DNA from: Owenia fusiformis
Lineage: Eukaryota > Annelida > Polychaeta > Sabellida > Oweniidae
Reading direction: 5' to 3'
Assembly (NCBI GenBank): GCA_903813345.2
Contig: CAIIXF020000001.1
Coordinates: 10,083,598 to 10,147,597, forward strand
DNA length: 64,000 nucleotides
This document shows positions 4,314-59,284 of the stretch, piece by piece. Under the pieces are notes generated by a model. The model searched no databases and had not been told where the DNA came from. It worked only from the letters and a program-made list of their open reading frames with translations. Numbering within the stretch: the stretch's first letter is position 1; every line of letters begins with the position of its first letter. The translations under genes and the position numbers were made by a program.

Positions 4314-4372
4314 GGTGTAATGGATAGTACTTCAGACTCGTGTCCGTGTGGCCTGGGTTCGAGTCTAGTATT
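4314..4372 (+). repeat. tRNA-like segment (SINE head or tRNA pseudogene)
   Basis: An A-box-like TATGGTGTAATGGATAGTA is followed at the usual distance by a B-box GGGTTCGAGTC. The 5' acceptor strand GTCTCTA has no good 3' partner, and the anticodon arm pairs poorly, so this is not a working tRNA. It resembles arginine tRNA in its 5' half. It lies inside the 4147-5737 element. Confidence 0.55.
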
Positions 4373-4412
4373 AAAATATTTTGTTTTTTATTTTTGCTTT
4401 ATTTCATAATTA

Positions 4413-25522: not shown

Positions 25523-25802
25523 GGCCCGCCCCCCCCCCCCCCCTAAGTTGTGCCAAGAAAAAAATTGGGTTCAAAGAAAATTTTGGGCCAAAAAAGGCCT
25601 CAGGGCCCGAAAAAGTGGGCCTTTTTTGTCATTACTGGGCATTCCAAGGCCTTATTTTTTAATTTCAGACAAAATCTTGAAGAAAATGGGCCTTAATATA
25701 TCAAAATTTGGGCCCACTTTCGGTTTTAGGGGCCCAAATTTTTTTTCCGCGCAAGCCTGGAATTTGCCCCCCCCCCCTTGTTGGTTCCTGGATCCGCCCC
25801 TG
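25523..25802. mobile_element. hAT-like MITE with poly-C tracts, left end degraded
   Basis: The right end reads, on the minus strand, CAGGGGCGGATCCAGGAACC, typical of hAT-type inverted ends. Poly-C runs lie near both ends (25528-25542 and 25767-25777), and many GGGCC/GGCCC words lie between. The left end (TGGGGCCCG) no longer matches, and no TSD could be matched to the TATTA on the right. Same general class as 40511-40674. Confidence 0.65.
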
Positions 25803-29967: not shown

Positions 29968-32900
29968 CTAGAATTGTTCATTAAATTCCTGGGCTTTGAC
30001 CAAACGGCCCGATTTGGCATCTGATATAGCGCCCCATAGATCAAACTTAAAGTCATCTGTGAACCCAAATGCGCCAAGGTCCGATTCATCTATAGCTTCA
30101 GCAAAGTTATGGGGATTGTTGAGGTTCTCTCCAAGTTCCCAAATTGTTTGGGCTGCAATAGAAAAAACAGGAATTGAGTCACACTTTTCATGTGAACTTA
30201 TTTTCTCAAATGAAATTGAAAATTCATATAGCATCTACAAGAAATATTCAGTGAAATCTTTTCATACATGCAGATTACCTAAGGCTTATGTACTGGGAGG
30301 TTTTGGATATGGGGTTTATCCAGAGAGATATATGCATAGCTACCTAAGGGACTGTGAGGACCGAAATGTAGATGTGTATATCTCAAGAGGGATAAACTCC
30401 ATATCCAAACCGACCATACATAACTGCTTTATCCTATTCCCAGTGGAGTTTTCAATTTTTTCTCATTTTTTCAGTTTTTCAAATTTTTTCTCATTTTTAA
30501 AAAAAGAAATTTCAAAGCGGGAAGATATGCCCTGGAGCCGGACATACAGAGGTTCTGAATATGGAAACCTCAAACTCAGGATACGAGATATATCTTACAA
30601 ACTTATCTCCCTAAAACTCTACTTGGCATAGTATAAACAGGCTTACATCAGGTCCTTGTGCTATATTCAAATCTTTCCAGAGTATAAAAGTAGAAAATGT
30701 ACAATAGTCAACAAGACACATGATGCAATACTATTGTTGCATCCGGATCTATTCTTACCTAGCTCTTCATCATTGATGCCCATGAATGACTCCAGCAAGT
30801 TATTTATTTTGTCTGTTGCCACGCCAACAACACCATCATCCTAGAAAATAGAAGACAAGAATTGCATCAACTATATAGCCTTGTGTCAGTTCATGAGAAT
30901 TATGGCAAGTTTATAGAGATATGGCATATTTTATAGAGCAATATGGAAATATTATTGTATGAAATCATGTTTTATTGACAACTATACAGGAAGTTTTCAA
31001 TGCATAATGTCTATTCTCAAGTGGTTTGCTCAGTATCTGATAAAACTGAGAGGCTGTGTTTATATAATATAAAGTGAAGTATGAAGTACTGTAGATAGAG
31101 GAAAGTACAGTATGTATAGAAATACACATGCAGGGGCGAGGACAGCAATAATCAAAGGGGGTGCAATTTTTGGGGTTTGCATCACTGCGAGAGATGCGAG
31201 CCCCAAAAAAGGGATATGGTGTTTACCCCTGGAAATTTTCAAAAATTTACATATGGTGCATTCTAAGCATTTCAAAATATAATTTGTCAATGTTCTTCAA
31301 ACCCCCCCCCCCCCTGGCTACACCCATGACATGTCCAACTGCTGATCTGATAAAACTTTCAAATGATACAACATGTGTTAAAATTCTCTTCAAAGTTATG
31401 ACTTCATCAGACACTTCAAAACCTTGGAGATGTCTGATAATATAAACATTTATGTCACCGTATATAAAAATTATCATGGTTATTGTATATTCACACAAGA
31501 CAAATCACTTGAACAGATAACAAAATGAATATGCTTGTACAATCAAAGTTCAAGCTTATCAGCTAGGCCAGGCAAGAGATGTAACCATTGTTTTGATTTG
31601 CTTGTGTTTCAAGATGCTCCACAGAACTAATTATTTGTCCTTAGACGTTACACAAAATGTGAGTCTAAATGACCCTTCTCTAGCTTGGAGTTGAGTAGCT
31701 GGTTAAAATGACACTTAATGCCCATTTTTATGATATATCCCCCTACCATATTGGATACAATTCAAAAAGACTGTTACAGGTAAACCCATTATTATAGTTG
31801 GTTCAGGCCAGGCTGTAAGTGCACAAAGTCATGCCAATTAATGGTAAAATTATTATAGTGACATGGCTAATGTATTACAACAATGGAAATTCAGGATGTT
31901 GCCCTTTGTGCAGTTATTATGTGGGACATGGAACCCATTTTCTGCCAGAGTACCAAATGTTGCCCTTGATAGAAATGGCCAACCTAATGATGAATGGGGT
32001 TGGATTAGCCTTGGTTTAGATTTTAGATCAAGGAGATGTTTTGCAATTATGTATTTAGAACTATGAAAAGGCACAAACTAATCAGTGATCTCCACAGGAT
32101 TTTTTCTCAAGTGGGTGCAAAATTCTCATTTTCACAATTCAGAACAAAATATGCCAATTTTTCATGATTTTTCTCATTTTCAAATGGGTGTAAATGGATT
32201 TTCAGGTGGGTGCAAGTCTATTTTCAAAATCTCAGGGGGGTGATGCGCCCACTTGGTTTAATGCTGGGATGATCACTGCTAATAATTATATAACCTCTTC
32301 TTCCAAACTTCATTTAAATATCTTATACTGCTTGTCATACCATATTAATTTTTTAAAATACTTTATCATATCTAAATATGTAATTACACTATTCATATAG
32401 AATTTAGTAGACGAGTTTCCTTTTTACAGTTGACATTCATCCTTTTGCCAATTATAGAAATCACAAGTTCAGTCTAAATATATGTATGTATATGAGTACA
32501 TGTATGTGTTATATTAGAGCAATGTGCATGGCGCCAGATTGTGTTATGTATGATGTTGTTTGTGCTAGTTTATTCTCATAGCTAGGATCAGTTAAAATAG
32601 GTACAATGAGACTATGTAAGTGCACACTCTAGCCAACATACAATATCATGTAAAGTTCCTTGGACCATCATACATGGACTGACATCTCTGCAAGTCAATA
32701 CTCTAACCAAGTATGAAATTCATGTACTGTACTAATACATAACGTATATGGTTTTACTCAAGGAGAACATAATTTCTGCATTAAGCCTGTCCATCAAGCT
32801 TGAATAATTCTCCACACCATTGCTTTGATTAATAATAAGGTACAACTGAATTAAAAATACAGCTCAACAATTTTCAACCCATTTAATGGCTTCTAAACAT

Positions 32901-35900
32901 GTATATGTTTATATATGATCAGGTTATGGTGCGGCTTTTTGCATGTGTGATTAATTGTCAAAGTTTTATGCAGCATTAGCTGCAACGTTCATGGAAAAGG
33001 ATTGCGTGACTGACTGTCTGTAACCAGGATATGATAACCACAGACACTACCACAAGAGTGAAAATGGCTGAAAGCATTCAAATATCCACATTTATACTGC
33101 AAACAGCACTGTATGTTATCCTGTATACGAGAAATAATGCAATCAGTTAGAAGTATACCAAGTTCTTACCTCTTGAACTGTAGCTGGACCTGTGGACCGC
33201 AACCTCAGTGTTTGTTTGCCTGTTCCTACACTGCCTGATTTCTTGTTTCCGGTGTTTGGCCCAATATTCGCTGAAATTTAAATAAATATGGTTTGAACTT
33301 TAAGCTTTAGAATCAAGATTTTTTAATTTTCAATAATAGACAGCAAACAGCTATATATGGGCATTGTGATAGAATCTGAAATATATAGACTGATAATTTT
33401 TGAAGTTTTGTCAATTATGCTCATATATTTGTGAATTCATGTGGTAAGAAATGTGTTTAAAATGTCATATCATTCTCTCATCAAAGGAACATCCTCAGTT
33501 GTTGCAAAACTATCTCATAGTTCATCAAAATTTGTAAGTGCATGGGCATGTTGTTAAAAAAGTGGAAAGTCAGAGTTCCTATGCAAAAGAATGGTGGCTT
33601 TTATAAAGGTAGGTAGATAGAGATAACCTTAATTGATTACTGCCTAATAGAAAGCATGGATCCTTCATCTGGTAAATTGCTAACCTTCGTTTTATAGCGA
33701 AGCATTATTTGGTATGAATTATGGAATAATTTTTCATACATGAGGTGCTTGTGGATTTTCAATTTTATGAAGTTTTTATCAAATATACAAGGAAAAGGGA
33801 AAAGTGTGTACAGATGAGCTATTATTGTACATGTATATTTATTGGAAAACTCAGTATAACAGTGAGCTACACCATGGTACCAGGAAAAGAGGAAGGCCGA
33901 AGAAACGATGGAAGGACACCGTGAAAGAAGACCTAACCCGCTTTCATATGTCGGATGACTGGCACACGGCTTCACAAGCCAGAGAACTCTTCCGAAGCCA
34001 AATCCACAAATAAAAGCATTTTCTGAAGAACTGCTTTCCACCCATCGTCACACTTGATGGGGACGAAAATGAGGGTCAGTATAACAATTCTAATGGGAGA
34101 CACTTTGTAGTACATGAACCATTTTATAAAGGTACATTTAATAACACTGCAGGAACAGAGACTGCATGGATAATGTAGGTTTCACCATTTGTTAACTTCT
34201 GAGTGAAAAACAATTACAGAATTTCTATTACTCATTAACCTTTTTTATGGTATTCATAGTTTAGTTAATTGGAACTAGAATTTTATACTAACAATTTACA
34301 AATGATTCTAACCCATGTTCTCCAGTTCGCAAGATAATGCTGACTGGACCTTATATGTGGGTCAAGTAACATGAACTATCAACCAGAAAAAGATGGCCAA
34401 AGATGATATTGAGTTCATATAGAAGTCATTGTCAATTTTTCATCATGTCTGTTGCCACATAACTTTCTTAAACTACTTCAAATATGTAGGCCTACAAATC
34501 AGAAAAATAGGGAAGTTTTCCAAATCTGGTTGATCTGACATGACTCCCCTGTATTTTAAATTTAGTAAGCAACTATGAGTTTTCTCAGAAATGCTCAAAT
34601 TGCGCCAAACAGTATCTTGAAAAAGATATCCAAAGGATCAAGACCCTCCTAGAAGTCACTTGTGGCAATATTGTCATCTATATTTGATGGGAAATTTTGA
34701 AAATACAACCCTGTATTTACAAATATGGTATGATGGGCCTGATACTGAAGTAGGATTACCAGTATGGCATATAATCATTACCAATCAATTACATTAGGTT
34801 TGAAATGATTTTTGAACCGGGCTGCCAAGAGCACCTATCATGAGGGTGGGGCTGCTTAACTGTAATATAGTCTATACTACGTAGGCAGAAGGTAGTTTAT
34901 AACTAGACTCTATATGCAGGGAAGGTAATATTAAAAATACAACAAACTGACACAGAATGACAACTTGCCCTGAATTAACTACAGCTACATCTTCATCAGT
35001 ATATAATCTACCAGGCGGTTACTATAGTAACTGACAATAGGATGTCTATTACTCCATCCTCCCTTACATCAGGTGTTTCAACCTTGGATTAAATGAGTGA
35101 TTTGCCTATTTTCAGTTGGTTAAATTGTAAGGGTTCAAAAAAGAGGTTGGGTGATATAAATGTGATGGGATATCAAATGTTAAAGAGATCCTTGATCAAT
35201 TTGATGACACACTATAGATGAGAATATAAAAGAATCGGATCAGGTTCAATATGGTAACATTCATGAATGTCACTTTCACTCACAAAAGGTACAGCAAATT
35301 TTGCTTCAGGACACAGCATTGACTTATAAAATCTATCTAATATTAGGCATCAATATACCTTTAAGGTCAACAATACTCAAGACTTATGAGGGTTCAACTC
35401 AAATATGTTTCCACTTGAAAGGTCACGCCTAACCATCGACAAGGTACAGTCACGTGACAGGTGACAAAATATGCCGTAGTACACTTTTGATGTACTATGT
35501 CACTATTAACTGATTTTGAGCGAAGACCATGATGTAGGTTCGATGCAGGTTTTCAAAAATAAATTTTAGGAGAACACAAAGGATTTTATGTTTGGTTTCG
35601 CGTGCATTCGATTTCAAAGACATTTACTTTTCTAATAACGTGAAAAGATCTTCGAGCAGTGCTCGATTTTTTTCGTTGTTAGTCTACCCATACGATTCTT
35701 CGGTTGGAAAAATGTTGTTTTTTACACATTTCCTTTGATAATTTTCTCCCCTGACGTCTCAGAGTGTCGAATATTTTTATGAGAATGTGTTTCTCTAAAC
35801 TACACAGTTTAGGACAGGTGAACATTTAATAAACATTCATGCATTTGATATAATTTAAAAAATCAGAAATGTACGTTGTCAACTCACAGTGTATGTTGTC

Positions 35901-38900
35901 CCTGTAATTGAAATACATGAGTTATAATATTATACATTGCAATGATTTAATTTCAAAATGCATTAAGGGTTTTATGCGTTACAAGTGATGTTCAACGAAC
36001 ATGCTCCTGTATCCCTAGTACAGATAAACAGGTAAAAGTGATTTTTTCGTTGAATGCTATTTTATTTTATGAAAGTATTAATATGGTGATTAATATGTGA
36101 CCACGGCGTGTTTTCTTCCGACCTCTTTAACCACTCGACGTCGGTACGTTACGTTATGTTTAGTTGCACTTTTATGAATTTTAATAATCTTAAGGAGTTC
36201 ATGGAGAGATCTTTACTAGCTAATCCAAGATGACTTTATGCTACAGGATGTCCCCATAGGCAGACATATACCAATGTCTCCATGTATGTGTCGTATATCA
36301 TTTTAAAGCTCATCCAAAGTTACATTAATTTGCCGAGTATCATGGTTCAACTCACAAATGGAAAAAGTTACAGGAATTTCAAAAGTTAGTGTTTGGACAA
36401 AATTAAAGTCAGTTTTACACCAAAACAATAGTCGGTGTGTCTCCTTAGCCGCCATGTTAACAGCAGCAATACTTTCCATATATGATCTTAAACTGGCTTC
36501 AAATAGGGATATGGCGTTTTGTAATCTTCATAAAACCTTTTGAAGGCATAAGAAGAGTTTCCTTGGAGTATCTACCCTAAACGTCATCTTTTTAGAACTC
36601 GATATCCATATATTATCTTCGAGAATAGCATCCATATTCACATTCAGGTCAGGGCTGTTTCCAGGATACTGAAATGAACTTTTTGGCACAACGCTATTGA
36701 AATGCCTGTTACTTTTTACCATTTGAACCATCATATTTGGCAAATCAATGTAACTTTGGATAAGCTTAAATATGATATATGACACATACTATGGAGAAAT
36801 TGGTATATGTCTGCCTAGGGGGGAAAGTGCAGAAGTTCAAAAGCCAGGGTTATGGAATACTAAAAAATTATTAGTAACATTGAAATTTAATCATATCAAT
36901 GACAATTTTATTGATTAACGTACAAAATATTAGAGTAAATTTTTCGATATGCCAGCCCTATTATTATAAAAAATTATTACTTTATTATCAAATATGTTCC
37001 TTCTATTACAAGTACATTATAGCATTTCATTCATGTAAAATTAACTGTGAATTGAGATCTGTAAGGCCAATGTGACAACATACATTCGAGTTGACAACAT
37101 ACATTATCTGTTTTTCGTAGTAGCATCCAAAGTAAAAAGCGGTTTTGCATTAACTCTGGATGTATATTTGTATACTTATCTTAAGTTGTGTTAGTCGTAG
37201 TTTGGCTGTTATTTGCATAGCAAAACAAAAATTAGAGAGAATTTTGCGAAATTCAGTCAAGATTTAGAGATCCCTGACGTACTGGGTAGATCTATAACAA
37301 GATATTGAAGTTGCTGAGGATCATTTGAAATAGATATGCATATTTGCAACTTAATTACAAATCGAATGCAACAACTGCCTGATGATGAACTGACACAATA
37401 TTGATCAAATCAATGCTAGTTCTTACCTCGCTTCCTCATTCTAGAAAATGGCGATATAAAATGGCGGAAATGACATAGTACATCAAAAGTGTACTACGGC
37501 ATATTTTGTCACTGTCACGTGACTGTACCTTGTCGATGGTTAGGCGTGAAGGTGTAATAATGTAAATTCAATAATCAATTTATTGTGATGGGAGTATAAC
37601 TTCAAGAGATGTTCTCAGAGACTGAGCCATTTGGGAAGTTCATGTATAATTATCCGTTGCCTAGGACTAAAAGTCGTGCAATATGGGAGAATTTGGCATG
37701 TTTAACAGACAAACATAGTATGCCTCTATAAATTCCTGATTATTTTGGGATTCTTTTTATGTATGGGTTAATCAGCAGAATGATCCAATAACACACAAAA
37801 AGTTCAATCATAAACGAAGATTTCCTCATTTTGCCAATTAGCCCATACGATTGGGGATTCAGCTACATGTACATGAAAAGAATCCTTAAATACTCAGGAA
37901 TTTATCAGGGTATGTTACTTTTGTAAGTTTTTTCTCTGATATTGTAATCATACAGACAAAGTATACAAGGATGCTCGCAGAACTATAGTCCAGGAACCAG
38001 ACAACCCTGCATTCAATACAGGTTTATGGAACTTTTACTCAATAATTCAAATATATTAGAACATGACTACCTCATATACAGATATATTTTCATAGATGTA
38101 TCATCTTGAGGATAATGTATGGAGGTGAATAAATCAAACATATCAAGCTCTTGTTTTAACATGTCCGAAGTCTAAGTTGTATAAAATATGTAAGACAATG
38201 AAATAAATACATAGAAAATTATACATTTAAACTAAATCTGAAATATTCATGAATGTAACAAAAGTTTTTTACTTACAGAATCCTGACTGCATTGGTGCTA
38301 CTGTTCGTATGGTGAAAGTTGAGCCTTTTGGGATTTCTTTTAACATTTTTGCCACCTCAAAATGGCGACAGCCTATTAAACTTTTTTCATTAATTTTTTC
38401 AATATGATCTCCTACAGCAATAAAGGGAGTTTTGTCCATAATGCTACCCTCTTTGATGCGTTTAATAAAGGCATATCCTGCACCATTATCTGTGATAGTA
38501 AGTCCTAGTGCATCTTCTGATTTTGTTACATCCAATTCTTTCGGCTGTCCTCGTATATGAGCAAATATGAAATCTTCCAAACCAATTTGACCGCCTAGAA
38601 GCCGCGTCATATCTATCTTGTGTGTGTTAAGTGTACAGAAGAGGATCTGAAAGAAATATCACAATATGTCACTATACAGTTGTGATATGGTAATTAAAAC
38701 CCAAAAATGGCAACACATCCACTAACATCAACATACTAAATGTCAAAATCACTCATAAAATGAATTAATTTGAAATTCAGACATTTTACTCTTGTGATAA
38801 AACATGTTAACATTGAATGTCATGTTATTTATGATAGAGGACTCATTCAAGTCTGTACTTCCTTGTAATTTAATTGTTTTGATTTATCATTGAATATTTT

Positions 38901-41900
38901 GTAAAAGGTTCTTCGGAGCAATAAAGTGGATATGAGAAATTCAGACAAGAATGAAACATAAAACCTGTCTAATCCAAAAACTACTGGGATCAGGCAAAAG
39001 TATACAAATTAGCAAGTGTTCACATTTCAAGATTTTTAAATATGTGGGTTAATGGAAGATATTAAAATTGGGACTAAGAAAAGTGTTCACATTGAGAGGT
39101 GTTCTGATTATATAGGTGTTCAGATATACAGGTTTCACTATACTGTAAATAGTGTGCATCATACGAAATTTTCCCTGATCAAAAATGGAGGTCTCGTTGG
39201 TGTGAATACAATAAAAATATTCCATTCTGCAATATATTATAAAATCTGAAATGCAGGAGTCTTGTAAAAGTTAAAGTAAAAGTTGAAGTTGTGTCTTTGA
39301 AAACTGGTGCAAAAACAGGTGAATTGTAAAGTTTCAAGGAAAAAGAACGAACATCTTCAGAAAAAATGGGGGGAGAGGATTTGGTCTGAATTGTAAAAAC
39401 CATTTGTCATCATTTTCAATCAATCTAAAATGCTGTTGAATCTATAGATCCTTGTACTTGCAAGCTTGGGATTCAGACCAAGTGTTTACCTATCAAAACG
39501 TTATCATTACATGGCAGGGGATCGCACCCCCCCCCCCCCCCCTCTGGCTACGCCTATGCATGGTATGTGAACTCATTACAGACCACCCAGCTTATTCTAA
39601 CAAACTGCAGTGCATATAAACTGTCAATACATTATATACAGCATATTCAATATACATGCACAAACAGTAATTAATTCAACAGTTTAATTATTTTTCATCT
39701 AACACATCTGTTTCATATATTGTTATAGTATACAGGTACATTAATACCATATTAATGTATACAATGTAGTGATTTATTGTTTTTGGAATACTGTTTGTCT
39801 TCTGCATTTTTATAGATATTAGATAAATAAGGAGAGAGTAAAATGAAGGGGTTGGAGAGGCCCAGGTCTATTGTTACTATTGGTATATGAGTATGATTTA
39901 TAGCAAATAAAAACTGATATGGTTCTCAACTTAAAAAAAATCAAAAAAATACAAAACCCAAAAACTGTTTGTTTTATTATATTGACTTCTATAAGAGAAT
40001 TTTTTAACAAGTCTACTCTCTTTACATGTGTAAAGTTAGAGGTGCCACAATAAGCTGAAGTATTACCAACCCATCCTCCTAAGCAGGTATCCAGAATCTG
40101 TACCTCCTTCTTCCCCGCCTGCTATAACCAATTTGGAAGCGCCCGATTAAACTGAATCACGGGATCTTATTATGCGCAATGACTTATACATGATTTCTGT
40201 CGCAGTGTTGCGACAGCCAATCAGATTGCGAGTTCTTAATCTGGGAAATGCTAACTGCTAATCGCAGGGGGTAAAAAGAAAGAATATATTCTGGATTTTG
40301 AAGCCCTGTGATCTGAGGTTGTACCAACCAAAAACAGACCCTTTACCCTAATTGTCTCAGGAGGATTTCTTACATTGAACCTATCCAATATCCTCATTTA
40401 GTTTAATCTATGCCCTATCATAATTACTAATTAGCTGCTATGACAATGATCAGTGATTGTCATGTATCTAGTTTAGAAAATCCTCATACTAATTTGTAAG
40501 ACTATATACTCCGGGGCGGATCTGCGGGAAGCAACAAGGGGAAAAAATTTAGCATTTTCTTCAAAATTTGGCCTAAAATTAAAAATAAGGCCCACTTTTT
40601 GGGGGCCAAAGGCTCTTTTTTCTGGGCCCACACAAGGGGGCTCACCCTGGGCCCCTCCCCCAGATCTGCCAGTGATACTATACTACAATTCACATGGTCG
40701 GGTCAAGAAAATGTGTTGTCAAAATAACTGAATTCCATATAAAAAAAACAAAAAAACTTCTGATTCTAGTAACACCTTGTAAGAGCCTATTCTATTATTT
40801 CTTTTAAATTATTATGATCAAATTTACTAGGCCATTCTTTTAAAGTATTATATGGCTAATAGGAATATATTTTATGGTCAAATGATTCCAAAATAGATGC
40901 TTATCTAAATATTTATGACTAATATTCTTACATCAATTTGAATTTCCAAAAATTGAACTGGTTTAAAAAGTGAATATGTTCTATAAATCTAACACAGAGA
41001 GGCACAAATCAGACGTATTACCCTTTGCATTCGTTTGACTTCACTTCTTAAAAGAGAGCTTCGTCTTCTTTAACTAGACTCTGCACGCAGGGTACAGACG
41101 TATAGGGATGGTGTCTGATTACAAAGAGTTGTGGAAAAACAAAGCTTCAAAATAGTGGTTCAACTCGCTCCCTCTCACCTTATAACTAAAAATCAATTTC
41201 AAAATCAAAGTCAGCATTTACCCCCTCTCCCGAAATAAACTTAGGGTGGGGTATAATAACATCTGGTTGTGGGTTCAATTCCCACCAGGGTGGAGTGACT
41301 TTTTCACATCAGCCCTTGGCATAGGATTTGACCCAATGATCCCTGTTCTTAGATTAACCAATCTTTCACAGCAGAATACCCAGGTACAGAAGTACAGTAG
41401 TAAGTTGAACTGGTTTAAACTTAGTTAACAGGTTAATGTCATGGTGAAATTACATGAGCAACCTACTATTACTACCTACTGACCATTTTCTGAAGAGTAA
41501 AAAGTGAAATCCAAGGGAGTGAAAATATTGCACTATGGTCCTTTGATTGCTGTTTTAATGTTTAATGGGAAAAAAGGTTTGACCGACTCACAAAAATTGA
41601 TTCAAACTATAGGTAAGGGATGGCGTACAATTATCAACAGTTGTGAAATAAAGAAGTTAGTTTCGTTAGAGGGGGTCGGCCGGGGAGGGAGTAAATGATG
41701 GTTTCATTAGCCAACAGTGTCATTGTGATTTTTTTAAATATTCATGTGAAAGACAAACCAACATTTAAAAATTTTGTTAGGTGAGCAGAGGGGGCAAACC
41801 ATAACGAAATCAACTTCTTTTTTCCATGACTGGAGGTACGCTTCTGTAACTGGACACCATCCCAAATCTACAAAGTGAAGGATTGTATGCACAGTGCACA

Positions 41901-42357: not shown

Positions 42358-42989
42358 TGTGCTATTTGTTCCTGACTGAATTATATTACAAATGTGCTAA
42401 ATCTCTACCAGGATTGGCTGGAATCGCTGCATCTAAAATTAATGTCAATCGTCATCGGCGGCCATACTAGATATGTGACCCTACAGGTATACAGGTGCGA
42501 ATTCTCAATTACGAAAATGACGTCACATCCCTTTTTCAATTCACTCTTAAAAATCAGTCTGTAAGTTGATTTTGCACACATCGATACTTAAATCAACTTT
42601 TCCACATATTATAAAGTTAAATTAAAGCGTAAGTCAAAACAAATCATGTTCAAGAATAAATTGTAACTGATTGATTGGATTTACTTTCAAGTCACATATT
42701 ACCTGATGAAACAGGTGTTTTAATTGGCTATTCATTCTGGGTGTACCCCACGACTAATTTCACTACAAATCAATATTTAGAAGAGAAACAATGGAACATC
42801 TCTGTCCAAGTTATCTATTTATAATTACATGTGCTTGTGCACAGTATACATATATCTTGTGTTTCAAGAAAATAGATTGACACACATACATTTTAGTAGG
42901 ATGTAATAAATCATTAGTTCAATTAATAATTTTGAACTGTACTTTGGCTATGACTAATCCATCTTCTCGTGGGAGGTTTAAATCATGAC

Positions 42990-43191
42990 TTTATATTTAC
43001 TTTAAATGGTTCAAGAATCACCATCAGTTTCTCATTGTGGTAAACCACGCCTTTCCCATCATTCCATGCAACAGAGAGTTGCCAGTTTTTGATCATCGTG
43101 ACAAATGACACGATGTGAGTCTCTATATGCTGGTCTTTTAGTGTAACAACAAAAGTGGTTTCATTGAATGAAAAAAGGAAATATAAATCAT
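42990..43191 (-). other. Candidate orphan exon or exon relic
   Basis: The minus-strand frame reads NETTFVVTLKDQHIETHIV, then NWQLSVAWNDGKGVVYHNEK, and ends at a good donor (AAA then GTAAAT at about 43004). The W-x-L-x-V-x-W...G...Y.N pattern recalls LamG/concanavalin-like strands. The only AG acceptors are inside the frame (near 43150-43160), and no partner exon was found. It lies between two unrelated genes, downstream of the 44,482 stop. Confidence 0.3.
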
Positions 43192-43225
43192 TATTTTTAT
43201 TGTTAATGCTACAAATGACAAACAT

Positions 43226-47400: not shown

Positions 47401-50400
47401 TACCATGTTCAACCCGAAATTACGTTTTTCCAAATAGTTTTCTTGCTTGAATAAACTCTTTGTAAAGTGGCAATTAGCAGGTTAAGTGTCTTTGGATACT
47501 TAAAAAGATAAAAAAAAAGATAAAAGTTCTTATAGAGCAGGACAGACATATTTCATTCGAGGAAATAAGTGATTTTTACTGGATATATCTAAGGGGTCCT
47601 GCCATACAATTGTCACAAAGATCTTGAAAAAGCGGTATGTTGCAGCAAAGTGGGTTCCAAAGTTCCTCACAGTGGAGCAAAAGGAAGCGCGTCTTGCAGC
47701 ATCTAGGCAATTTCTGGATACGTTTTTGCATCATTTCCAAATGCTCCCTGAACCAGTTCATAAGTCTCTTGCAAAGTCTTGCCATTTTGAACCATGCACT
47801 GTATCAGATTTCTATGCTTCCATTTCACCAATTTGGTTGGTGTGGACACATCTGCCATTTTGGAAATTTTGGAAAAAAAATTCAAAATTTCCTCACTTTT
47901 CCATCTCAATTTTTCAACTGGGTTTTGGACAGTATACATCACAAAGGAACTTATCGTGTCACTTGTCTATTGTGATGTCATAGACACAATTAGAAAAATT
48001 GAAGAATTTGAAGAAAAATAGCCAACCAAAAAAAGTAAAAGTCTTATTTTCCTTGAAGTTATGGCATCAACTGCAAAACTTTTTGAACCACCTAAGTATA
48101 CAATAAAGTATGTGTTTGATATATGTATGTTCAACAATAAGATACATAGTTAAGACACAAAGTGATAAATATGGCACTCTGAGGAGCAAAATGGCCACCA
48201 TGTTATTAACCAAGCATGCCAAAAACTTGAACAGATCTTGGCACTAGTCTGCTCTTGCACCTGTAAATTTTTAACACATACACACAAGTTAAGTGGTTTT
48301 CCGGGAATTTTGCTGACAAGATTTAGGAGACATCTACCCACCTAACCAGATGCATGCATGCCCAGCAGCACATCCACAAATATAGCAATTTTTCAAAGTG
48401 TGATAAAAATCATATTGTCTTGTAAAGTGCCACTGAACAACTCACCTGGATTAAGTACCAGCCTGAGAGGACCATCGTAAGGACTCTTCAAAGTAGAGCA
48501 TTCAGGGGTGTTTGACATGGTATATCTACGCTTGTTGTCAGTACGTTGCTGGTCATCTCGAGTCAACTGAAAATATACAAGAGAAATTTAATCATTGCAA
48601 TGTGTATAACAAGACATTTTAACATGCAAAATGTCACCACCTGGCTTGTTACAGATGCTTAACCCCAATCACCAAACACCAACTGCCGAACATTCACAAA
48701 AAAAGTTGGGAGACCACTTTTGGTGGTGACATAAGAACATGGTAGCTAAATGTGAAATTGGAAGCATTTCAACTAATCAAAACCAGAGTCAAAAATCCTA
48801 TCAGTTTGTCAAGTATTTCATCTTGATTTGCAGAGATTTTGCGACATGAATCCAAAATGACAACCTTCAGATTTACACCCATTATGCCAGAAAACTAATA
48901 ATCAGTCGTAGATTTTCATACCCAGAAACATAACTAAAAATGCACTAACAAAACTGTGAATGGAAGTATACTCACAAAGCATCTAAATCTCTCCCTGATG
49001 ATTTCCTGTCCCGTATTTAAAGCTGCAGCAAATACGTTGCCATAGTTATCTCGCCAGCTTCCCATACATTGGAACCGAATTTCTGAAAAATACATATACA
49101 ATATGCATAATTTTGTTTTTGTGTATGTATTTGTGCATATACTTTAAAATGTGAATTGTAAACACCTTTTAGATATCCATCTGAATCAGTTACATAAAAG
49201 TATAATTTCAATGAAACAGAAAACCCAAAAATGTCATAAACGATAAATTTTGTTGTATTCAAAATTTTAAAAAATATTTTTAAAATAATGAGTGGGGATT
49301 CCACAAGCTCAAAAGAAGACCCCAAAACATCACTACATCCCAGACCCAAAAATTCATGCAGAAACAAACGTTATGCTTTGAAATGTTACTTCTAGACATT
49401 AACAAAGGGCAAAAGTACATGTATATTGAAAACAAACTTACGATCAGTTGAGGAAGTACTGACATCAGGACAGTACCCAAACTTCATCAAGAACACTTCA
49501 TTGTCCACATAAGGTGAACCAGGCTCCTGACAGGCAACAATTTTACTGGTAGAGCTGTCACAGATACCACCTCCTCCAATGTCTACTTCATATGTAAACT
49601 GGAACACTCCCTCAAACATAGTTTTGCAGTTTACAGTTAATAATGATTTTCCTGAAAGTAAATGATTCAAATTGATTAAAATGTTTGGGAAAAGGAATGA
49701 CTGTTAACTGCTGAACCATTTAATGAGCATAATAAAAAATATTGTAATTTAATTATCAAGGATTATTTTAATGTATGAAGATATGTCCTCCTATGGAAAG
49801 CAAGTGCGAACAATGAAACAATGTATTAGGACAACAATTGAAAGTATAGTAAATAAATCATTTTTTCATAAATCATTAAAAATCAATAAAAGTAATAATG
49901 TTCTGTTTAGTGTAAATGAAGGAATTTCAAGTATTTCTTATGCCTAGTATAGCTAGTCTGTTTGTAAGTTTGTATTTACATCAACTGACATACTTTTGTT
50001 ATATCAGTCTTGTCTTCTTCAAAATTTGATTATTTCTATACATTCGAAAACTTACTGAACATGGTTAACATTGCATTTTGTGGTAGAATATCCCGACAAA
50101 CATCTTCAAGTTTGGCATCAGTACGGGAATCACATGTTGCTGCAATTCAAACAGAAAATCAGTTGAATGAGAGTTGGGACACACATGATGACACAAAAAA
50201 GTGCCATCCACCTCAAATTGAATAACTTTTTTGTCTATATGATTCCTGATTTCTTCTTTTGCACATTTAAACGGACTTCATGGAGCAACTCTTCAAGAAG
50301 TCTCAGATGACAAGATCAATTATGTGGAGTTTTATGATGGTTACAAGATGTGATCTAAATGTCGTCCATTCCATGGCACACTTCTGGATTTTTTATTGGC

Positions 50401-53400
50401 AGTTATTGACCACATTCGCCTGACATAAACCCACAAGATTTTTATCTCTCGGGGTACTTGAAGGATCATATGTGTATGTAACAAACCCCCAAACCACAGA
50501 ACACCTGAAGATAGAGATCACAAGATCCATTTCTGTGGGGAATGTGTTAAGGTTATCAATAACTTTACCCATAGAATGCAGGTGTACCTAACATTTAAAG
50601 AAAATCTTATAAAGCTCATGAAACTGCATCCAGTTGAGCTAGTCATCTGAAACTTCTCGTGGAGTTGCTCCATGAAGTTCAGTTTTACTTTGCAAAAAAA
50701 GAAAGCAAGGAATCATATAGATGAAAAAGTTATTTAACATAATGTGGATGGCACTTTTTTGTGTCACCCTGTACATGTATTCTGATTGTGCATATATCCA
50801 ACTGCAAAAGGTCTTTCTAAATAACTGTACCCTTCTCAGCAACCAATCTTAAACTGTGTGCCTTATTTAAACAAGTTGTCGCAAATACAAACAATTTTGT
50901 TTAGTTGATTTATTCAGAAATGATAGAGCTTTATCATAGGTAAAAAATTTAGGTGAATGAATTTAATCAAATACTGTAGTTCATCTAAATTGCTTATGCA
51001 TTCTTTGTGCTTTTCATTGGAATTTATAATTTTATGTTCCAATCAGGAAAATTGAGCTACTGTGACATGCTTTAAGGATCATATAAACTTACACATTTTA
51101 TTTTCCACTATATTTGGAGTCCTATAGTACAGCTCATAACATTTGTAGCAGTTACTTGATCTGAAAGACAAGATATTATCCATAAGATCAAATATTTCAG
51201 TGATCTCCACAGCATTTAAGAAAGTGGACACAGCAACCACCTGAGATTTTGAAGATAGGCTTGCACCCACCCGAAAATCCATTTGCACCCACTTGAAAAT
51301 GAGAAAAAATCATGAAAAATTGGCATATTTTGGCCAATTTTTGTCTGAATTGTGAAAATGAAAATTTTGCACCCACCTGAGAAAAAAGCCTGAGGTGATC
51401 ACTATATTTACAAGAAAATTATTTTGTGGTCAGACTTAAAAATGAATTTTATAGTTCTTCGATTCACATTCCGCACAGACACATGGTTCAATGTTTAAAA
51501 TCTAAGAAAATTATGAAAAACTGATACCATACTCAAATGAGGCAATATTGTTGAAATATTATTGTTCAAACAAAGTACACTCTTACATAATTTACTAGAC
51601 AACAGCAACCCCAAACGTAGCAAATCCCATCAAACAGCCATGACTGGCATTTTTACATAACAAAAATGGCTACCTTTAAAATTGTCATTAGTCTTAGACA
51701 GTGTGACATGCTTATAGTACAGTTTTCACATACCAAATATGAACTAAATTGCTCCACTGCTTTTCGAGTAATAGTAAAATACGTTAAAATGGTGGCCATT
51801 ATGAAAAATGGCCATCTTCTACCAAAAGTGTCATTAGACAGTTTGCCATGCTTATAGTATTCACACACCAAATATGAACAAAATTGCTCCACTAGTTTTC
51901 GAGTTATAGTGAACATGTTAAAATGGCCCCCATTTTGAAAAATGGCTGCCTTCTACCAAAAGTGTCATTAGACAGTGTGTCATACTTATAGTATTCACAT
52001 ACCAAATATGAGCAAAATCGCTCCACTACTTTTCGAGTTATAATAAAATATGTTAAAATAAAGAGTAAAGGCCGCCATTTTTCAAGATGGCTGCCATGTG
52101 CTTCTTTAATATCTAGATTTCTAGCTTTATTAATACCCTATATAATTTTTTTACACTTAAAACATATTGCTATTACAGTTTTACATATTGTACCTAAATT
52201 ACTGTAAAACCGGCACCAACATGGCCGCCATTTTTAAACGAGCAGCCATTTTGAAAATCGACTTTCGAGCAGAACTTCTATCCCCATAGGGTTTATGTGT
52301 ACAAAATATGAACAAAATCGGGCCAACAGTATTTGAGTTATTGCCTGGACGGATGGACACATTCCCTATATCCCTCCAAACTTCGTCTGATGGGATAATA
52401 ACAATTGAGGCTAAATTTTAATCCAAATACTAGTTCTGCCATTTAATTCAACGAAAACCATCATTTTTATATGTTTTATATTATCCATGAGTTAGTTGTT
52501 GAATCATATACATGGTCACTGGTCAGGACTGTCAGGACTGTACTTACTGGTCATAAAACAATATTTTACTGTCAAACTTTCCATCAGCATCTATTGTCTG
52601 ATTATCATTTCTAATGTCTATACATTTGCCAGTGAAGAGCTTGTTACTGATGCCCTCTGAGTTAATAATGTGATCAATGTCTTCACCATTCTCCATTGTA
52701 TACCAGTCTCCCCAGAAGTGGTCTGGAACTGAACATGATCTAGCTCCTTGTGCATCTAGAAAATAGGAAAGAACAGATTAGATTAATAATATTAATTATA
52801 TACACTTTATGTCGATTACAGTTAAATATTGATATACGTATCTTTAAACTGCTAAAATAGTGTACAGTCTAAGGCAGGGAAATGTAATTCTATCAAACCT
52901 AAAAAGAAACAATTAAAGGTCATGGTGTAATGCAATATAACATGAAACAAGATTTATGGAGCACCCATCCAGATACACGCATACATGCCCATCAGCACAA
53001 GTCAACCAAATAGCACTTTTCATTGTCATTCACATTTTAGGTTAAAATGTAAAAGCGCACTTATTAAAAATTGTACCTTTTGGGAATCTGCAACTGGTTA
53101 AGTATTTTGGTTCAGTTGTAGACAGATATGTACACTCACTGATAAGTCTTCATTGCATGATGTGAAAGTTAAGGGACTCATAAACATGTTAGAAGTCATA
53201 ATTTTGAAAAGGTAGAGATTTGAAAGGACATTTCAAATATTGCCACTCAAGCTTTTTTTTATTTGATTGAAATGTTGACTCATCACGTGTATATATACGT
53301 ATTTAAACGTAATTGGCTTTAAAATACATATTTGGTACTCGTATATACAGTGCTGATACAAAATAATTGATAAGTCGTATAGTTGGCATATTTTCTTGAA

Positions 53401-56400
53401 TTTTAACTTTTAATGTCCCAAACTGCAGAAAAGTATACACTATAAATCATATTTTCCAAAAGAGTGTCTCCAAGGCTTCATACCAACGTATGTATAATGC
53501 ATTTGTCACGAGTTTGAGCTGAAATTTCGCCAAAATGAAGTAAGGGTAATATCCGCCAGGTTTGTTTACTGTGGTTAGCTTTTAGTGGTAAGTGTTCAGA
53601 AGCAAATAATTCATGTGCGCCAAATAATCAAATAATCTGATTGGTTTTAACTTTAGTGTGCATGCGCATGATGTGTGCCATGTTTTTTTTCTTGTGATTT
53701 TGTTTCGTTTCATGGAGTTTGTATTTTAGTGTAACTTCCACAAATATGGTGGACCAATGACAGAATTCACTTCGAAATTTAAGCGACCTTTTTACCTATA
53801 ATAGCAAAACGTTTGTTTTATTTGTATATTCTATCTCACAGGCTGGTATCGAAAAATTTGTCCGCTGTGACGGAGCGTGCTATTTTGCATAGAATCACTA
53901 GGAAATCCACACAATTTATTTTTTTACTCATATGTTTTGCTATATCAAAGAAAATTACTGACTCCATGCAATGGATATATCATTTGCGGGTAACTTTAAA
54001 TTATGTTTGAAGTCTAACAACGTTATGAGTAAAAGCTATTGAAAACGGCGTCGGAGTATCATACTCCAAAATGTACCATTTCTTTTATTTCTTTTTAATG
54101 GTACAATATAGCGACACGATAATATTTACATATGTTTTCAGCATAACTCTGAAGGTATTACTGAGATCTTTATGTATTGGCTATTTTTAATTTTTTTGGA
54201 TAAAAAATAATAATTAATTTTTTTGTCCGCTGTGACGGAGCAGTTTCAAATCTGAAATGCGTTAAGAATTTAGATTCATAATATATTTCTTTACAACTAA
54301 ACTTTAGAGGAGCGAGCGTGTCAAATCTCTTTCGTAAAGTATTCTGAAAAATGAAACGTAATAAAAGTACACAATTCAAATTCTGAGATGTATATACGAC
54401 CACTCTTTAAGCTTCTTTTCTCAGTTTGTACTGCAATCCAACTTATGCATGGTAACTCATGAAAATGATAGTCAACTTCCATTTCAGTAAAGGGTATTTG
54501 CCTTTCGTAGTGCCCTCTGTGGATCCATCCGCCTGACATGGTCATTTTTTACGGTAACTTAATTATTTGAAGTAAAATGATTTGCTGAAGATGAAGCTAA
54601 ATACATATAATGGTATGGACTGTGGATTGTTCTACCCTCTTTAGTCGTTCCAAAAGGTAAGTTGAATGTATCTTGAAATACGAAAATGCAAAATTTGATT
54701 TTAAGATCGTTCTTTATTTGACTAAGAGTTATGGCTATCTGATGCAACTACAGTAAAATATGTGTACAGTGAACACATGTGGAGCCCAACAATGTGTTCC
54801 CAGTTGGTATAGATGTTCACTCCATAGAGGCAATTTCATACAGAAGTCAGAGGAATATTTGATAAGAAGAGGTGTTCACTAGAGAAAGATATTCATTGAT
54901 ACAGGTTTTACAGTGCAGCACGTTTACAAAGACTTTTTTTATATATTATATTTTTTTATGCAAAACGATGAATTTCATGAATTTCAAATAATTGCAAATT
55001 AAATCTGTATTGGGATCATCTTATATACAGTAATATAATATTATGTGGTAAAAGGTTATACATCTGTCGGCATGCACGTCTGTGCGCTATTTCGAATAAG
55101 TAAATTCATATTAGCCCTATTTACACTACACGTGTCATTTCAAGACGTCTAGGCGAAAACGTATTAGAAATATTATGTTGAGTTTACATCATGTTGATTT
55201 CAGTACAAACCTCCGAAAAATACTAAGAGTGGTCATTTTTATATCTCAGATTTACATTACCCCATATCTCCAAGAGGCTGCTTGTCATTATTTAGGAAAG
55301 TGATTTGTGACGTTCTCTCTTCTAAGGGTACTTTTAAAAGATATAATTTGAATCTTAAATTCTTAACTGCTCCGTCACAGCGGACAAAAAATGTAAACAT
55401 TATTTTTTATAAAAAATATTAAAAATACCCAATACATCAAGATATCATTTATACCTTCAGAGTTATGCTGAAAACATATGTAAATATTATCGTGTCACTA
55501 TATTGTACCATTAAAAAGAAATAAAACAAATGGTACATTTTGGAGTATGATACCCTGGCACCGTTTTCAATAGCTTTTACTCTTAGCGTTGTTGGACTTC
55601 AAACAAAAGTTAAAATTACCGCAAATGATATACTCATTGCATGGAGTAAGAAATTTTCTTTGGTATAGCGAAACATATGAGTAAAAAAATAAATTGTGTG
55701 GGTTTCTTAGTGTTTCTATGCAAAATAGCACGCTCCGTCACAGCGGACACATTTTTCGATACCAGCCTGTGTATCTATCTATAAGAGTCTCAGGGGTACA
55801 TAGACAAATCCATTTTGGTAGGAGCTCTCTGTTTAGTTTGAAAACTCACCCTTTATTATTTTGTATCAGCACAATACAAACAATTTATTCCAAATTTTGT
55901 CACTTGTGTTCTTATCAACAGCGATATGTACAGGGATAGAACATTACTGGGCCTCTAGGAAGACCAGTTTTGTACTGATAGAGGGACCCAGAATAAATAT
56001 AGTTTTCAAATCAAATCAAATATCGACTGCGGTAACTCTTTCAACTTTTTAGCCAAGACTATGTTTTGGTCATAATCATTGCTTTGGTGTGTATTGCACA
56101 TTACAAATTTACTTCAGTTGGTTCTGAAAACTCTCAACATTATTTTAACACTAAATCTAAACGCTTTTATGATTACCATTTTTTAAATTCTTCAGGGAAA
56201 AGATTTACACCTTGACCTACTTTTACCTGTGATCAATTACTTGTACTAACTAAGGCCCTTACACTATTTGCCAGTTATTTTGCCGGTTATATTTGGATTA
56301 GGAATAAATGCAACGAGAAATTAACCTTTTTTCAAATGATTTTATAACTTTTCTAAACTTGATTGCAATTTTCAAAGATGGTTGCACAGGTGCGAAAATC

Positions 56401-56577
56401 ACTTCCTGAAAGTCGTTTATCTTCCATTAATACATCTCCATACGTTTTAAAACTCACTAATTAGAACAACAATGCCAAAAGCTCATTACTTAATATAGAC
56501 TTACCTGTATAATGACATAGATGTGCAAGATATAAGACTGCAAATGCGGCCAAGCTCAAGAGTATTTTCGCCGCCAT
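44482..56577 (-). CDS. Secreted, probably GPI-anchored Cys-rich protein (DUF7042-7045-like), complete
   Basis: Thirteen coding exons, all phase-consistent: 56577-56505, 52755-52548, 51160-51093, 50139-50056, 49651-49442, 49082-48976, 48566-48446, 47058-46836, 46514-46315, 46121-45879, 45615-45509, 45049-44908, 44639-44482; 647 residues. Signal peptide MAAKILLSLAAFAVLYLAHL. Modules recur. CSVPDHFWGDWYTM (exon 2) resembles CNLPRNYTGKWFTV (exon 8). FQCMGSWRDNYGN...RFRCF (exon 6) resembles LRCVGYWMEDMKS...RYRCW (exon 11). Exons 5 and 10 carry larger cysteine modules (CPIAGRYQF). The end, GAAGN then a 20-residue hydrophobic tail finishing HLNLS, fits a GPI signal or a single membrane anchor. This architecture recalls uncharacterised invertebrate proteins annotated with DUF7042-DUF7045 (from memory). 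Molecular role unknown; likely cell-surface. Confidence 0.85.
45178..45317. mobile_element. TACAGTAAAACC-family MITE (intron)
   Basis: Left TACAGTAAACCTGTATAAATGG; right end (minus strand) TATGTAAAACCTGTATAGAG. 'GGAACACC' and 'GGTGTTCC' sit symmetrically inside. It lies in the intron before the terminal two exons of the secreted-protein gene. Confidence 0.7.
47217..48098. mobile_element. Rearranged mariner relic, TA-flanked, 882 bp
   Basis: Near-perfect inverted ends of about 50 bp: ACTTAGGTGGTTCAAAAAGT at left and its complement at right, bordered by TA. Inside are two mariner-transposase pieces on opposite strands. Plus strand 47622-47720 encodes KKRYVAAKWVPKFLTVEQ (the segment before the first catalytic Asp). 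Minus strand about 47850-47703 encodes GKTLQETYELVQGAFGNDAK (the N-terminal DNA-binding segment). The catalytic D..D..D core is missing. It lies in the intron between exons 7 and 8 of the secreted-protein gene. Confidence 0.85.
50181..50773 (+). mobile_element. Tc1/mariner-superfamily relic with inverted ends
   Basis: The ends pair for about 120 bp (GATGACACAAAAAAGTGCCA at 50187 against minus-strand GGGTGACACAAAAAAGTGCC near 50770). Plus strand 50416-50466 encodes SPDINPQDFYLSGYLKD, the last catalytic-Asp block of Tc1/mariner-type transposases (usually SPDLNPxDFFLWGYLKD). Stops and frameshifts follow. It lies in the intron between exons 3 and 4 of the secreted-protein gene. Confidence 0.82.
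51198..51404. mobile_element. MITE with CAGTGATC ends, copy 2, 5-bp TSD TATTT
   Basis: Starts CAGTGATCTCCACAGCATTT and ends GGTGATCACTA (last base mutated). TATTT on both sides (51193-51197 and 51405-51409). The interior matches the element at 32083 in opposite orientation ('gcacccacttgaaaatgagaaaaaatcatgaaaaattgg'). It lies in intron 2 of the secreted-protein gene. Confidence 0.85.
51595..52400. repeat. 'AAAATGGCCGCCATTTT' tandem/interspersed repeat
   Basis: About four degenerate units of around 120-130 bp: 'aaaaatggccatcttctaccaaaagtgtcattagacagt', then 'catgcttatagtattcacacaccaaatatgaacaaaattgctccac', then 'ttttcgagttatagtgaaa'. It ends with 'gggccaacagtatttgagttattgcctggacggatggac'. Related to the repeats at 7020-7930 and 12,120-12,330. 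Confidence 0.7.
53837..55771. mobile_element. 1.9-kb foldback transposon with ~430-bp arms, 5-bp TSD TATCT
   Basis: Arms 53837-54260 and 55350-55771 are inverted copies. The ends read CACAGGCTGGTATCGAAAAA, bordered by TATCT on both sides (53832-53836, 55772-55776). Each arm itself has the motif TTGTCCGCTGTGACGGAGC near both its ends, as a direct repeat about 365 bp apart (53858 and 54223 on the left; complements near 55375 and 55735 on the right). The spacer of about 1.1 kb has no recognisable transposase and contains a TACAGTAAAA MITE. It lies in intron 1 of the secreted-protein gene. Confidence 0.88.
54749..54913. mobile_element. TACAGTAAAA MITE nested in the foldback transposon
   Basis: Starts TACAGTAAAATATGTGTACA and ends 'gatacaggttttacagtg', with 'gaggtgttcact' near the right end, like the 21657-21843 element. 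The right border is blurred. Confidence 0.55.
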
Positions 56578-57698
56578 TTTACCTGTTACTCATTCAGACC
56601 CCTTGCATAGTCATAAGAAATGTTTGCAAATAAGAAACAAGAAATCAAACCCAATTGTGTAACTATCTAACGTATGTTTATGTGAGGAAATGTGTCCCAT
56701 AACAATACATTCCTTGAAGATTAGCGAGAGGGTCGTTGTTGTTTGTCATTTATTTCTAAAAAAAAAAAAACTCATCATCACATGTGGGGTCCTTATTTCA
56801 CCTATTTTACCTGTATCTTATGCTGCCATCTTTAAATAAGGATAAAAGTTAAAGCATTTTATAAACCGATACATATGTAATAAGGTAATGTTATTACTGT
56901 ATTACTTTCTCTCCTAAACAATTGAATAATTTACAGCATATCAATATGGTAACTTGCACCATATTAATGATATTAATCAACGATACTTCCCAGTCTTGTG
57001 TTTTTATTGATTTAATTTTAAAAGACAGCCAGTCATCATTTCAGGATCTATAGGACCAATTTGGAATAACAAGCCTTTGTGACTCCCAACTACACATCCC
57101 ATCCTTGCGTTAGGTATTTAGTCTTGTAAAGGAGGGGGGGGGGGCGTCACAGGGATTTGTAGGTAGACTAAATCAAATCTTAGGTCAATTTAGGCAGTTG
57201 CATCTTTCAGCAAAACCATCCAAATGCAGTTTGAGCAAGATAAGAACAACCAACACATTCAGTGTATTTGGGACGAAATGAACTTGATGTAAGTGAATGC
57301 AATTTGTTCTGGTTGTTTACCTTTTATTATTTTAAAACAGAACATGAACAGAACAACATGTTTATAATTATGTGTCGTGATCTAGATCATGCATCAATTA
57401 ATTTCTATTGCTCTGCATGTCACTGATATATTGAAGGAGAAATACATTGCAAATAAATTGCCTTCTCTCAAATCATCTTTGGTAGTGTTGACAGTTCAGT
57501 GGTTATAAACAAAGAAAGGGACAATCTGTATTATTGTTTTATAACATATCATATATTTTATATATATATATCATTTCATTCATAATCAACATTTACATAA
57601 TTTACATTATATGTATCATATACATCTATTCAATTCATATAAAATTGTAAACACCATATGGAACCACACTACTAACAATACTATATACAATAATCACA
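56578..57698. other. Upstream flank of the secreted-protein gene
   Basis: The bases just right of 56577 form the presumed promoter/5' UTR. No coding region. It has a poly-A run near 56760, a poly-G run at 57134-57144, and an AT microsatellite at 57555-57571. Confidence 0.45.
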
Positions 57699-57703
57699 TA
57701 TAT

Positions 57704-57885
57704 CAGGCCCGTAGCCAGGATTTGCCAAGGGGGGGTTCAGTTTTCAAAAATTTCCAGGGGGGGGTTCACATTTGACAATTTTGGCTCAAATATGGCTAAA
57801 ATCACTTGAGAAGTGCTCAAAATGGTGAAAAACCGCATGATTTTGAAATAATTTTTGGCCAGGGGGGGTTACGGCTACGGGCCTG
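57704..57885. mobile_element. hAT-like MITE, 182 bp, 5-bp TSD TATAT
   Basis: Perfect 13-bp inverted ends CAGGCCCGTAGCC and GGCTACGGGCCTG, flanked by TATAT (57699-57703 and 57886-57890). The interior has G-runs (GGGGGGGTTCA twice) and 'gattttgaaataattttt'. No ORF. The flank is AT-rich, so the TSD is less secure than the ends. Confidence 0.85.
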
Positions 57886-59284
57886 TATATGAGGGTTGTT
57901 TTAATGTAACATTTACAAGACACTTGGAAACTGATGAATACTATTCATATATCAATTTACCCCATACTAAAACAGATAATAATGCTAATTATGATAAATA
58001 ATGACCTAACATCAACTTACTTATTGAGTAACATTAGCAGTATAAAATAAAACATTTTATAAGCTTATTGCCTCTTTAAATTGTTAATTTGATATGATTA
58101 TGTTTACATTATTATTATAATCAGGAAATCTAGCAGGGTGGAGAGACTTTTATTTTGTGATACCATTGATTTTTGCAATATAGAAGTCTTAGATTAGTAA
58201 AAGTTCTAGATTCATAATGAAGAGTTCAAATATATTGAAATACATTGATGTTTTGCCCCGATCCCTGATCTAAATTCCATTTACAATGAAATAACCATTT
58301 AGGTTTTAGTATGAAAATATATATTGAAAAACATTGATGGTTTGCCCTTATCCCTGATCTAAGCCAAAAGTCCTAGATTTAATATGAAACTACCATTCAA
58401 GGCTTTAGTATAAAGAGGAGTAAAATATATTGAAAGACATTGATGTTTTGAAAGCAAAATCAATCAATGATATAGATAAATATGATACTGCATATTGGCA
58501 GTATTCTATTCTAAGCAGATAAATATTCTAATATGTATATATATTTTTGGAATTCAAGAAAGTCTCAAGTCAGACTTTGGTACAAGTATCACCAGATCTT
58601 TTTTCATGAAAGACAAAAAAACTGTTGAGCTGTTGAGGGCAGACATATTTTGTATATCCTCTAAGGATACCAATCCTGGCAAGAGTGATCAGATCATTTA
58701 GATAATATTTCTATATTATGTCAATATGAGATTGTAATATACAGCTGTCACATGTTGGTTTACTGTCTTTAATATTGTAAAAATTCATAACTTATTGTGC
58801 TCCTTTTTAAAATTGATTTAGCATACAAAATAATTCTAAGTTTGGGTCTAAAGGGGCAGCAAATGATAGTTTAACATGGTGGAATCAATATTTTCAAAAG
58901 ACGTGTCAATGAGCCCTTTTTAAAATCTGAAAAAATATTGAGAGATGTCCGATTAAATATGGCAGTGTGTTGTTGTGAACTTGCACAACATGATTTTATT
59001 TAGATTAAATGTGTAATATCATAATAAAAACTAAGGCATTTGTCAGAGTTCTTCGAATTTCTAGATATACACATGATAAGGTAATTGGTAAAAAGCTACT
59101 CTCAGCTTATCTCTCTTATTTGCTGCCTCTTTAACCCTAACCGCATATAATCTATTCACATTATAATATGCATGTACTATGGAAATAGCAAGTGATTGAC
59201 ACAATGTCACATAAATAACCATATCTACTACAATAACCTATTCACCAAATAATATACAATTTCACATGCCTACAAGTACCATGG

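Follow-up and report, generated by a model that had tools for sequence, protein, structure and literature searches.

Six short elements with identical 5-bp flanks

The window is a stretch of 64,000 nucleotides of the Owenia fusiformis genome (C1:10083598-10147597), which we compared with the whole genome of 498,259,871 bases in 525 contigs. Between positions 2600 and 11235, four open frames that match PF00001 make up a small local cluster of rhodopsin-type receptor genes. Further on lie six short elements (Table 1), for which an earlier note made from the letters of this stretch had described CAG-type inverted ends, with a CCGGGG variant in the element at 40511, and identical 5-bp flanks. When we re-read the window, all six (6/6) were at their places with identical flanks, and their end sequences agreed with that description. 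Open frames of at least 110 codons overlap none of them (0/6). We refer to the elements at 32083 and 51198 as family B, to that at 57704 as family D, and to that at 40511 as family E; the elements at 31131 and 39515 have what we call A-type ends.

Table 1. Features of the window, with family ends in the first column and the ends read in the window in the fifth
Feature	Position in window	Strand	Length	Ends in window	Duplication or remark
Four open frames matching PF00001	2600-3223, 5867-6886, 7971-8981, 10165-11235	-			E values 8e-29 to 1e-47
Empty-site relative of family D copy L060	21708-21760	-			One copy of the 5-mer at the junction
Further family E copy	25525-25802	-		CAGGGGCGGATC at 25802, the only clear end	Left end not found
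ACATG duplication of the 31131 element	31126-31130 and 31329-31333				Flanks read in the window
MITE, A-type ends (CAGGGGC... / CATGGGTGTAGCCAG)	31131-31328	+	198 bp	CAGGGGCGAGGACAG / CATGGGTGTAGCCAG	ACATG
MITE, family B (CAGTGATCTCCMCAG ends)	32083-32278	+	196 bp	CAGTGATCTCCACAG / CAGTGATCATCCCAG	CTAAT
Remnant, A-type ends (left CAGGGG, right CATAGGCGTAGCCAG), C run between	39515-39558	+	44 bp	CAGGGGATCGC / CATAGGCGTAGCCAG	CATGG
MITE, family E (CAGGGGCGGATCTG / CACTGGCGGATCTG ends, here CCGGGG variant)	40511-40674	+	164 bp	CCGGGGCGGATCTG / CACTGGCAGATCTG	ATACT
MITE, family B, orientation opposite to 32083	51198-51404	-	207 bp	CAGTGATCTCCACAG / TAGTGATCACCTCAG	TATTT
MITE, family D (CAGGCCCGTAGCCAGG ends)	57704-57885	+	182 bp	CAGGCCCGTAGCCAG / CAGGCCCGTAGCCGT	TATAT; shortened near right end

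Repeat families in the genome

DNA searches of the genome were run with five of the elements, the one of 44 bp at 39515 being too short for this. They returned at least 41 matches for the element at 31131 (best 40 of 444 candidates scored), at least 40 each for those at 32083, 51198, and 57704 (best 40 of 2853, 2683, and 2820 candidates scored, respectively), and at least 46, mostly partial, for that at 40511 (best 40 of 629 candidates scored). These numbers place each of the five in a repeat family, and since the elements at 32083 and 51198 match many common places on opposite strands, we assigned both to one family. Exact motif places across the genome numbered 4018 for the family D ends, 1710 for the A-type end CAKRGGCGTAGCCAG, 1299 for the family B ends, and 980 for the family E ends, and the reversed-pattern control gave 0 in every case.

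Four groups, namely families B, D, and E and the matches of the 31131 element, were each sampled with 20 fetched copies. The chosen copies measure 194 to 208 bp in family B and 204 to 216 bp in family D; the element at 57704 is about 24 bp shorter than its family D relatives, the loss being near its right end. The families have the attributes of MITEs: they are short, have inverted ends and a target duplication, and occur in many copies of similar length. Mean pairwise identity among chosen and window copies was 98.5% in D, 93.7% in B, and 79.7% in E, so that within these best-match samples D looks youngest and E oldest (98.5% versus 79.7%).

Two other pieces of these families were seen in the window. 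The further family E copy is 82% identical over 224 bp to genome copy L063 and 77% identical over 299 bp to L077, and it contains long C runs. A 36-bp piece at 18237-18272, which is 86% identical to family D copies and adjoins CAGGCTCTTAGTCAGGATTTGCC, is probably a decayed fragment.

Target-site duplications in genome copies

All 20 family B copies have both ends (CAGTGATCTCC), and 18 of them carry an exact 5-bp duplication, the exceptions being one copy with 3 bp and one without duplication (n = 20); mismatched pairs, used as a control, gave a 5-bp match in 2/380. Family D (CAGGCCCGTAGCC) likewise has both ends in 20/20 copies, with a duplication of exactly 5 bp in 18/20 and of exactly 6 bp in the other two (L041 and L047), against 0/380 for mismatched pairs. 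For family E (CAGGGGCGGATC), we used the 12 of 20 copies that have both ends and dropped the other eight. At least four of the five bases are kept in 10 of these 12 pairs, three of them being exact (control, 5/132), and mean flank identity is 0.75 at length 5 and 0.25 to 0.42 at lengths 3, 4, and 6 to 9.

Among the 100 of the 1710 CAKRGGCGTAGCCAG places that were listed, we found facing pairs in which CAGGGG stands at one end and CATGGG or CATAGG at the other, the same asymmetry as in the elements at 31131 and 39515. Ten such pairs were fetched: eight are short (98 to 281 bp), L150 spans 933 bp, and L151 spans 3304 bp. The CAGGGGCGTAGCC / CATRGGCGTAGCC end pair, as in the two window elements, is flanked by an exact 5-bp duplication in 7/8 of the short copies and by none in L147, with 0/42 in the control. 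The duplication of the 98-bp copy L149 is CATGG, like that of 39515, and L150 keeps 4 of 5 bases. L151 was rejected as a real pair, its flanks matching at 1 of 5 bases. The seven exact pairs include L142 (C1:8452870) and L143 (C1:8456059), which are copies of one duplicated stretch: one A-type insertion, together with its near flanks, is found twice, 3.2 kb apart, which probably reflects a local duplication after insertion. We also observed that CATAGGCGTAGCCAG is repeated on C1 in one orientation at a spacing of about 3 to 5 kb (e.g., 9688514, 9693203, and 9697892), as though a longer element carried it in its tandem or terminal direct repeats.

No 8-bp duplication was found among the paired copies of families B, D, and E or of the A-type ends in any sample. 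Across 67 duplications, into which the two 6-bp family D copies entered with five of their six bases, the only target preference is a slight one, for A at position 2 and T at position 4. The expectation that copies across the genome would show 5 bp is thus borne out, with mismatched-pair controls, in the sampled B, D, E, and A-type copies.

The element at 31131 requires separate treatment. The eight short A-type copies have a mean identity of 88.6% among themselves, and the 31131 element is 53 to 56% identical to seven of them and 73% identical to the 98-bp L149; having the A-type end pair but another interior, it forms a family of its own. Thirteen of its 20 fetched matches have no end pair, and one of the other seven (L001, GAAAT) has an exact 5-bp duplication. 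In 17 of the 20 (L002-L005, L007-L015, and L017-L020), found on many contigs, the left flank is the same or closely similar (GTAAACATACATGTA or similar), which marks them as copies of one larger repeat with an A-type element inside, not as independent insertions. Duplications of 8 bp or none in most copies, or ends lying within longer repeats, had been named beforehand as observations against the 5-bp claim, and observations of that kind were made in part, for the 31131 element alone. The evidence for its 5-bp duplication consists of the window copy, L001, and the type of its ends.

Empty sites and the possibility of chance matches

Empty sites had been suggested as a check, and we found them for two MITE families (B and D) and for two hAT copies described below. 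The joined flanks of ten sites, including the six window sites, were used as a genome-wide query, and the matches scored were all those of the family B copy L021. Joined over a single GAATA, its flanks gave 119 candidate places, the best 40 of which all span the junction, at 95 to 99% identity over about 90 bp. The other comparisons were made within fetched sequences. The joined flanks of the family D copy L060 match a place in the window (Table 1) at 83% over 53 bp, 16 of them beyond the junction; those of the hAT copy L098 have two matches in L126 (83% and 78%) and one in L098 itself (83%), each over 107 to 110 bp; and those of the hAT copy L094 match L095 at 83% over 58 bp, 9 of them beyond the junction. 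The empty-site matches represent sequences related to the target, as distinct from alleles of one site.

These results bear on whether the flank matches are coincidences picked from an AT-rich window. When the window was screened for pairs of ends that agree at 9/14 positions or better and have identical 5-bp flanks, 20 pairs came out, compared with 12.85 on average in 40 Markov shuffles, an excess small enough to favor coincidence; at an end match of at least 11/14, there were 3 pairs against 0.35 in the shuffles. By itself, the window is a weak case for 5-bp duplications, and it is the genome-wide copies that decide whether they are real. In the face of those copies and the mismatched-pair controls for the B, D, E, and A-type ends, together with the empty sites, coincidence is hardly credible. 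Four of the six elements pass the looser screen; that at 51198 fails because its right end is TAG, which the screen disallowed, and that at 39515 fails because its left end has little in common beyond CAGGGG. For the latter, both points would suit an origin without transposition, as a chance C run beside a broken A-type end. We find this rather doubtful, given that CATGG stands on both flanks, that the right end, one of the 1710 CAKRGGCGTAGCCAG places, matches the A-type end exactly, that the object aligns at about 84% to L145 over 39 bp and to L149 over 37 bp, and that L149 itself is a 98-bp element with the same end pair.

hAT transposase loci with 5-bp and 8-bp duplications

A PF05699 profile search of the genome gave 138 hAT dimerisation-domain matches, and 60 hAT loci were sampled in three sets of 20. 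Thirteen of the first 40 hAT-domain loci have CAGnnGCGTARC ends and an exact 5-bp duplication, their ends being CAGGCGCGTAACCAGG or CAGTGGCGTAGCTACG, related to the A-type and D ends and not identical to them. L094 extends over 4630 bp (positions 400-5029) between the ends CAGGCGCGTAACCAGG and CAGCGGCGTAACCAGG, with the duplication CTTTT, and holds DUF4371 (8e-14) and Dimer_Tnp_hAT (4e-13) in two long open frames; its left end shows 2 differences from the family D end in the first 15 bases. L089 and L098 have CAGTGGCGTAGCTACG / CAGAGGCGTAGCTAGC ends, AATAT and AATAG duplications, and a hAT-domain fragment inside. The L094 protein has 75 matches in the genome, and 10 of the 20 loci fetched from these have the same two end kinds with exact 5-bp duplications. 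L106 and L110 have CAG-type ends with imperfect duplications, and L102 has a single degenerate CAG-type end. L120 (127-4397; 4.3 kb) has the ends CAGAGGTCGCGCTAGC / CAGTGATAGCGCTAGA and the duplication CCGAT and contains, in three frames, a C17orf113-type zinc finger, a DUF4371 match below threshold, and a hAT domain. L118 combines a weak left end with a right end, CATGGGTGTAGCCAGG, that resembles the one of the 31131 element. The transposase-bearing copies that we found comprise two sub-lineages with different ends plus these two weaker candidates (L118 and L120). The third set of 20 loci, 12 of which are short pieces, contained no CAG-type end pair with a 5-bp duplication; L139 in this set carries a single L098-type right end. 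An end-motif scan of 20 hAT loci returned isolated ends here and there and nested MITEs (e.g., in L088 and L090); the transposase-bearing copies came from a scan for paired ends that demanded a 5-bp duplication.

Six hAT loci of the first set (L081, L083, L084, L091, L092, and L093) have TAGnG-type ends and exact 8-bp duplications. Four others (L086, L087, L088, and L095), whose hAT matches cover profile positions 16 to 82 or 16 to 66, were rejected as MITE partners, having TAGAG ends and 8-bp duplications. We built a tree of 40 loci from about 90 residues (91 columns) around the dimerisation motif, with 17 rows unlabelled. The 13 five-bp and 10 eight-bp rows fall on the two sides of a 100/99 branch, with a long-branch warning that makes the deeper order unsure. 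The labels need one change, a number as low as in 0/500 label shuffles, a clustering that near-identical copies inflate.

Proposed mobilization of the MITE families

We propose that the six elements are, very probably, non-autonomous MITEs moved by hAT-superfamily transposases of a hAT5-like group that duplicates 5 bp. The ends of L094 and L098 are similar to the D and A-type ends, and the L098 end has CAGnGGCG in common with the E ends. hAT enzymes cut an element out and insert it at staggered breaks in the target. Here, a transposase with a zinc finger, DUF4371, and a hAT dimerisation domain, as in the fuller copies, would recognize CAnnnnCGTARC ends or a relative of them, excise the element, and link it to target strands whose cuts lie 5 bases apart; repair of the stagger would leave the 5-bp duplication. 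The 5-bp stagger is read from the duplications and the empty sites; we infer the cutting steps, the pairing of transposase with family, and the place of family B in the same group.

The earlier note had suggested that one hAT5-like class cutting 5 bp apart could have spread all six elements. As a class, this is supported by the duplications, the empty sites, and the hAT loci with related ends; a single transposase as the mover of all six is not, as there are several sub-lineages, none of them found with CAGTGATCTCC ends. The search for an autonomous element that it called for gave a similarly divided answer: hAT-bearing copies with related ends are present, but no transposase-bearing copy with exact family B, D, or E ends was found among the 60 sampled hAT loci.

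Family B may instead have been moved by another, unseen transposase class that leaves 5-bp duplications at CAGTG ends, the A-type, D, and E elements being hAT5-like. Its ends have little in common with those of the hAT-bearing copies beyond CAG-G, and a hAT-bearing copy with CAGTGATCTCC ends was found at 0 of the 60 sampled loci (138 domain matches being known in the genome), both as this alternative would have it. We nevertheless consider it quite unlikely, since A2 and G5, the usual positions in hAT ends, are kept in the B ends, and the hAT-domain locus L120 combines a CAGTGAT end with a 5-bp duplication. On the side of hAT5-like movement, we raise as a tentative idea, more probably wrong than right by some distance, that one hAT5-like transposase lineage moves, within a single genome, several families of MITEs with hardly more than CAnnG in common at their ends; recognition would then be unusually loose, and B, having no autonomous copy itself, would be cross-mobilised.

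Two hAT loci have B-like ends nearby. L131 was rejected as an autonomous family B element, as a B-like element begins just past its hAT fragment. When L131 and L141 are joined, positions 5972-6875 form a 904-bp element with the B-like ends CTGTGCTCTCCC / CAGTGCTCTCCCCAG and the duplication GAACT; it has E-type ends inside, about 105 bp apart, and the hAT fragment lies outside. L099 has one B-like end with 2 mismatches, for which no left end flanked by an identical 5-mer was found.

Relation to known hAT groups

The 8-bp hATs of the same genome have the hAT dimerisation domain in common with the 5-bp loci and differ from them in their TAGnG ends, their 8-bp duplications, and their position on the other side of the tree. 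Mar of Drosophila also makes 8-bp duplications. It resembles the MITEs described here in consisting of short non-coding hAT-derived elements and differs in falling in the Buster family (PMC3517528). hAT families with 5-bp duplications have been named hAT5 (Kapitonov and Jurka 2007, cited in PMC12730594), and PMC12730594 places hAT5 in a lineage that includes Blackjack. In PMC9004415, hAT5 is assigned to some invertebrates and fish and called unusual for its 5-bp duplications. The elements described here are like hAT5 in combining a hAT transposase with a 5-bp duplication, a likeness to the published description. The literature already has a name for the kind; this is a known, uncommon transposon group (since 2007), not a new system. 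Two candidate parallels were rejected: the elements numbered hAT-5 in PMC6004678 have 8-bp duplications, and the 5-bp duplication in PMC3630058 belongs to an LTR element. No published report of these MITE families was found in a literature search of partial coverage.

One genome thus holds a 5-bp-duplicating hAT lineage and abundant MITEs alongside 8-bp hATs. As the sampled 5-bp and 8-bp loci separate cleanly by sequence, the change in cut spacing can be compared in one host, and with it the residues that go with 5 versus 8 bases within the hAT superfamily.
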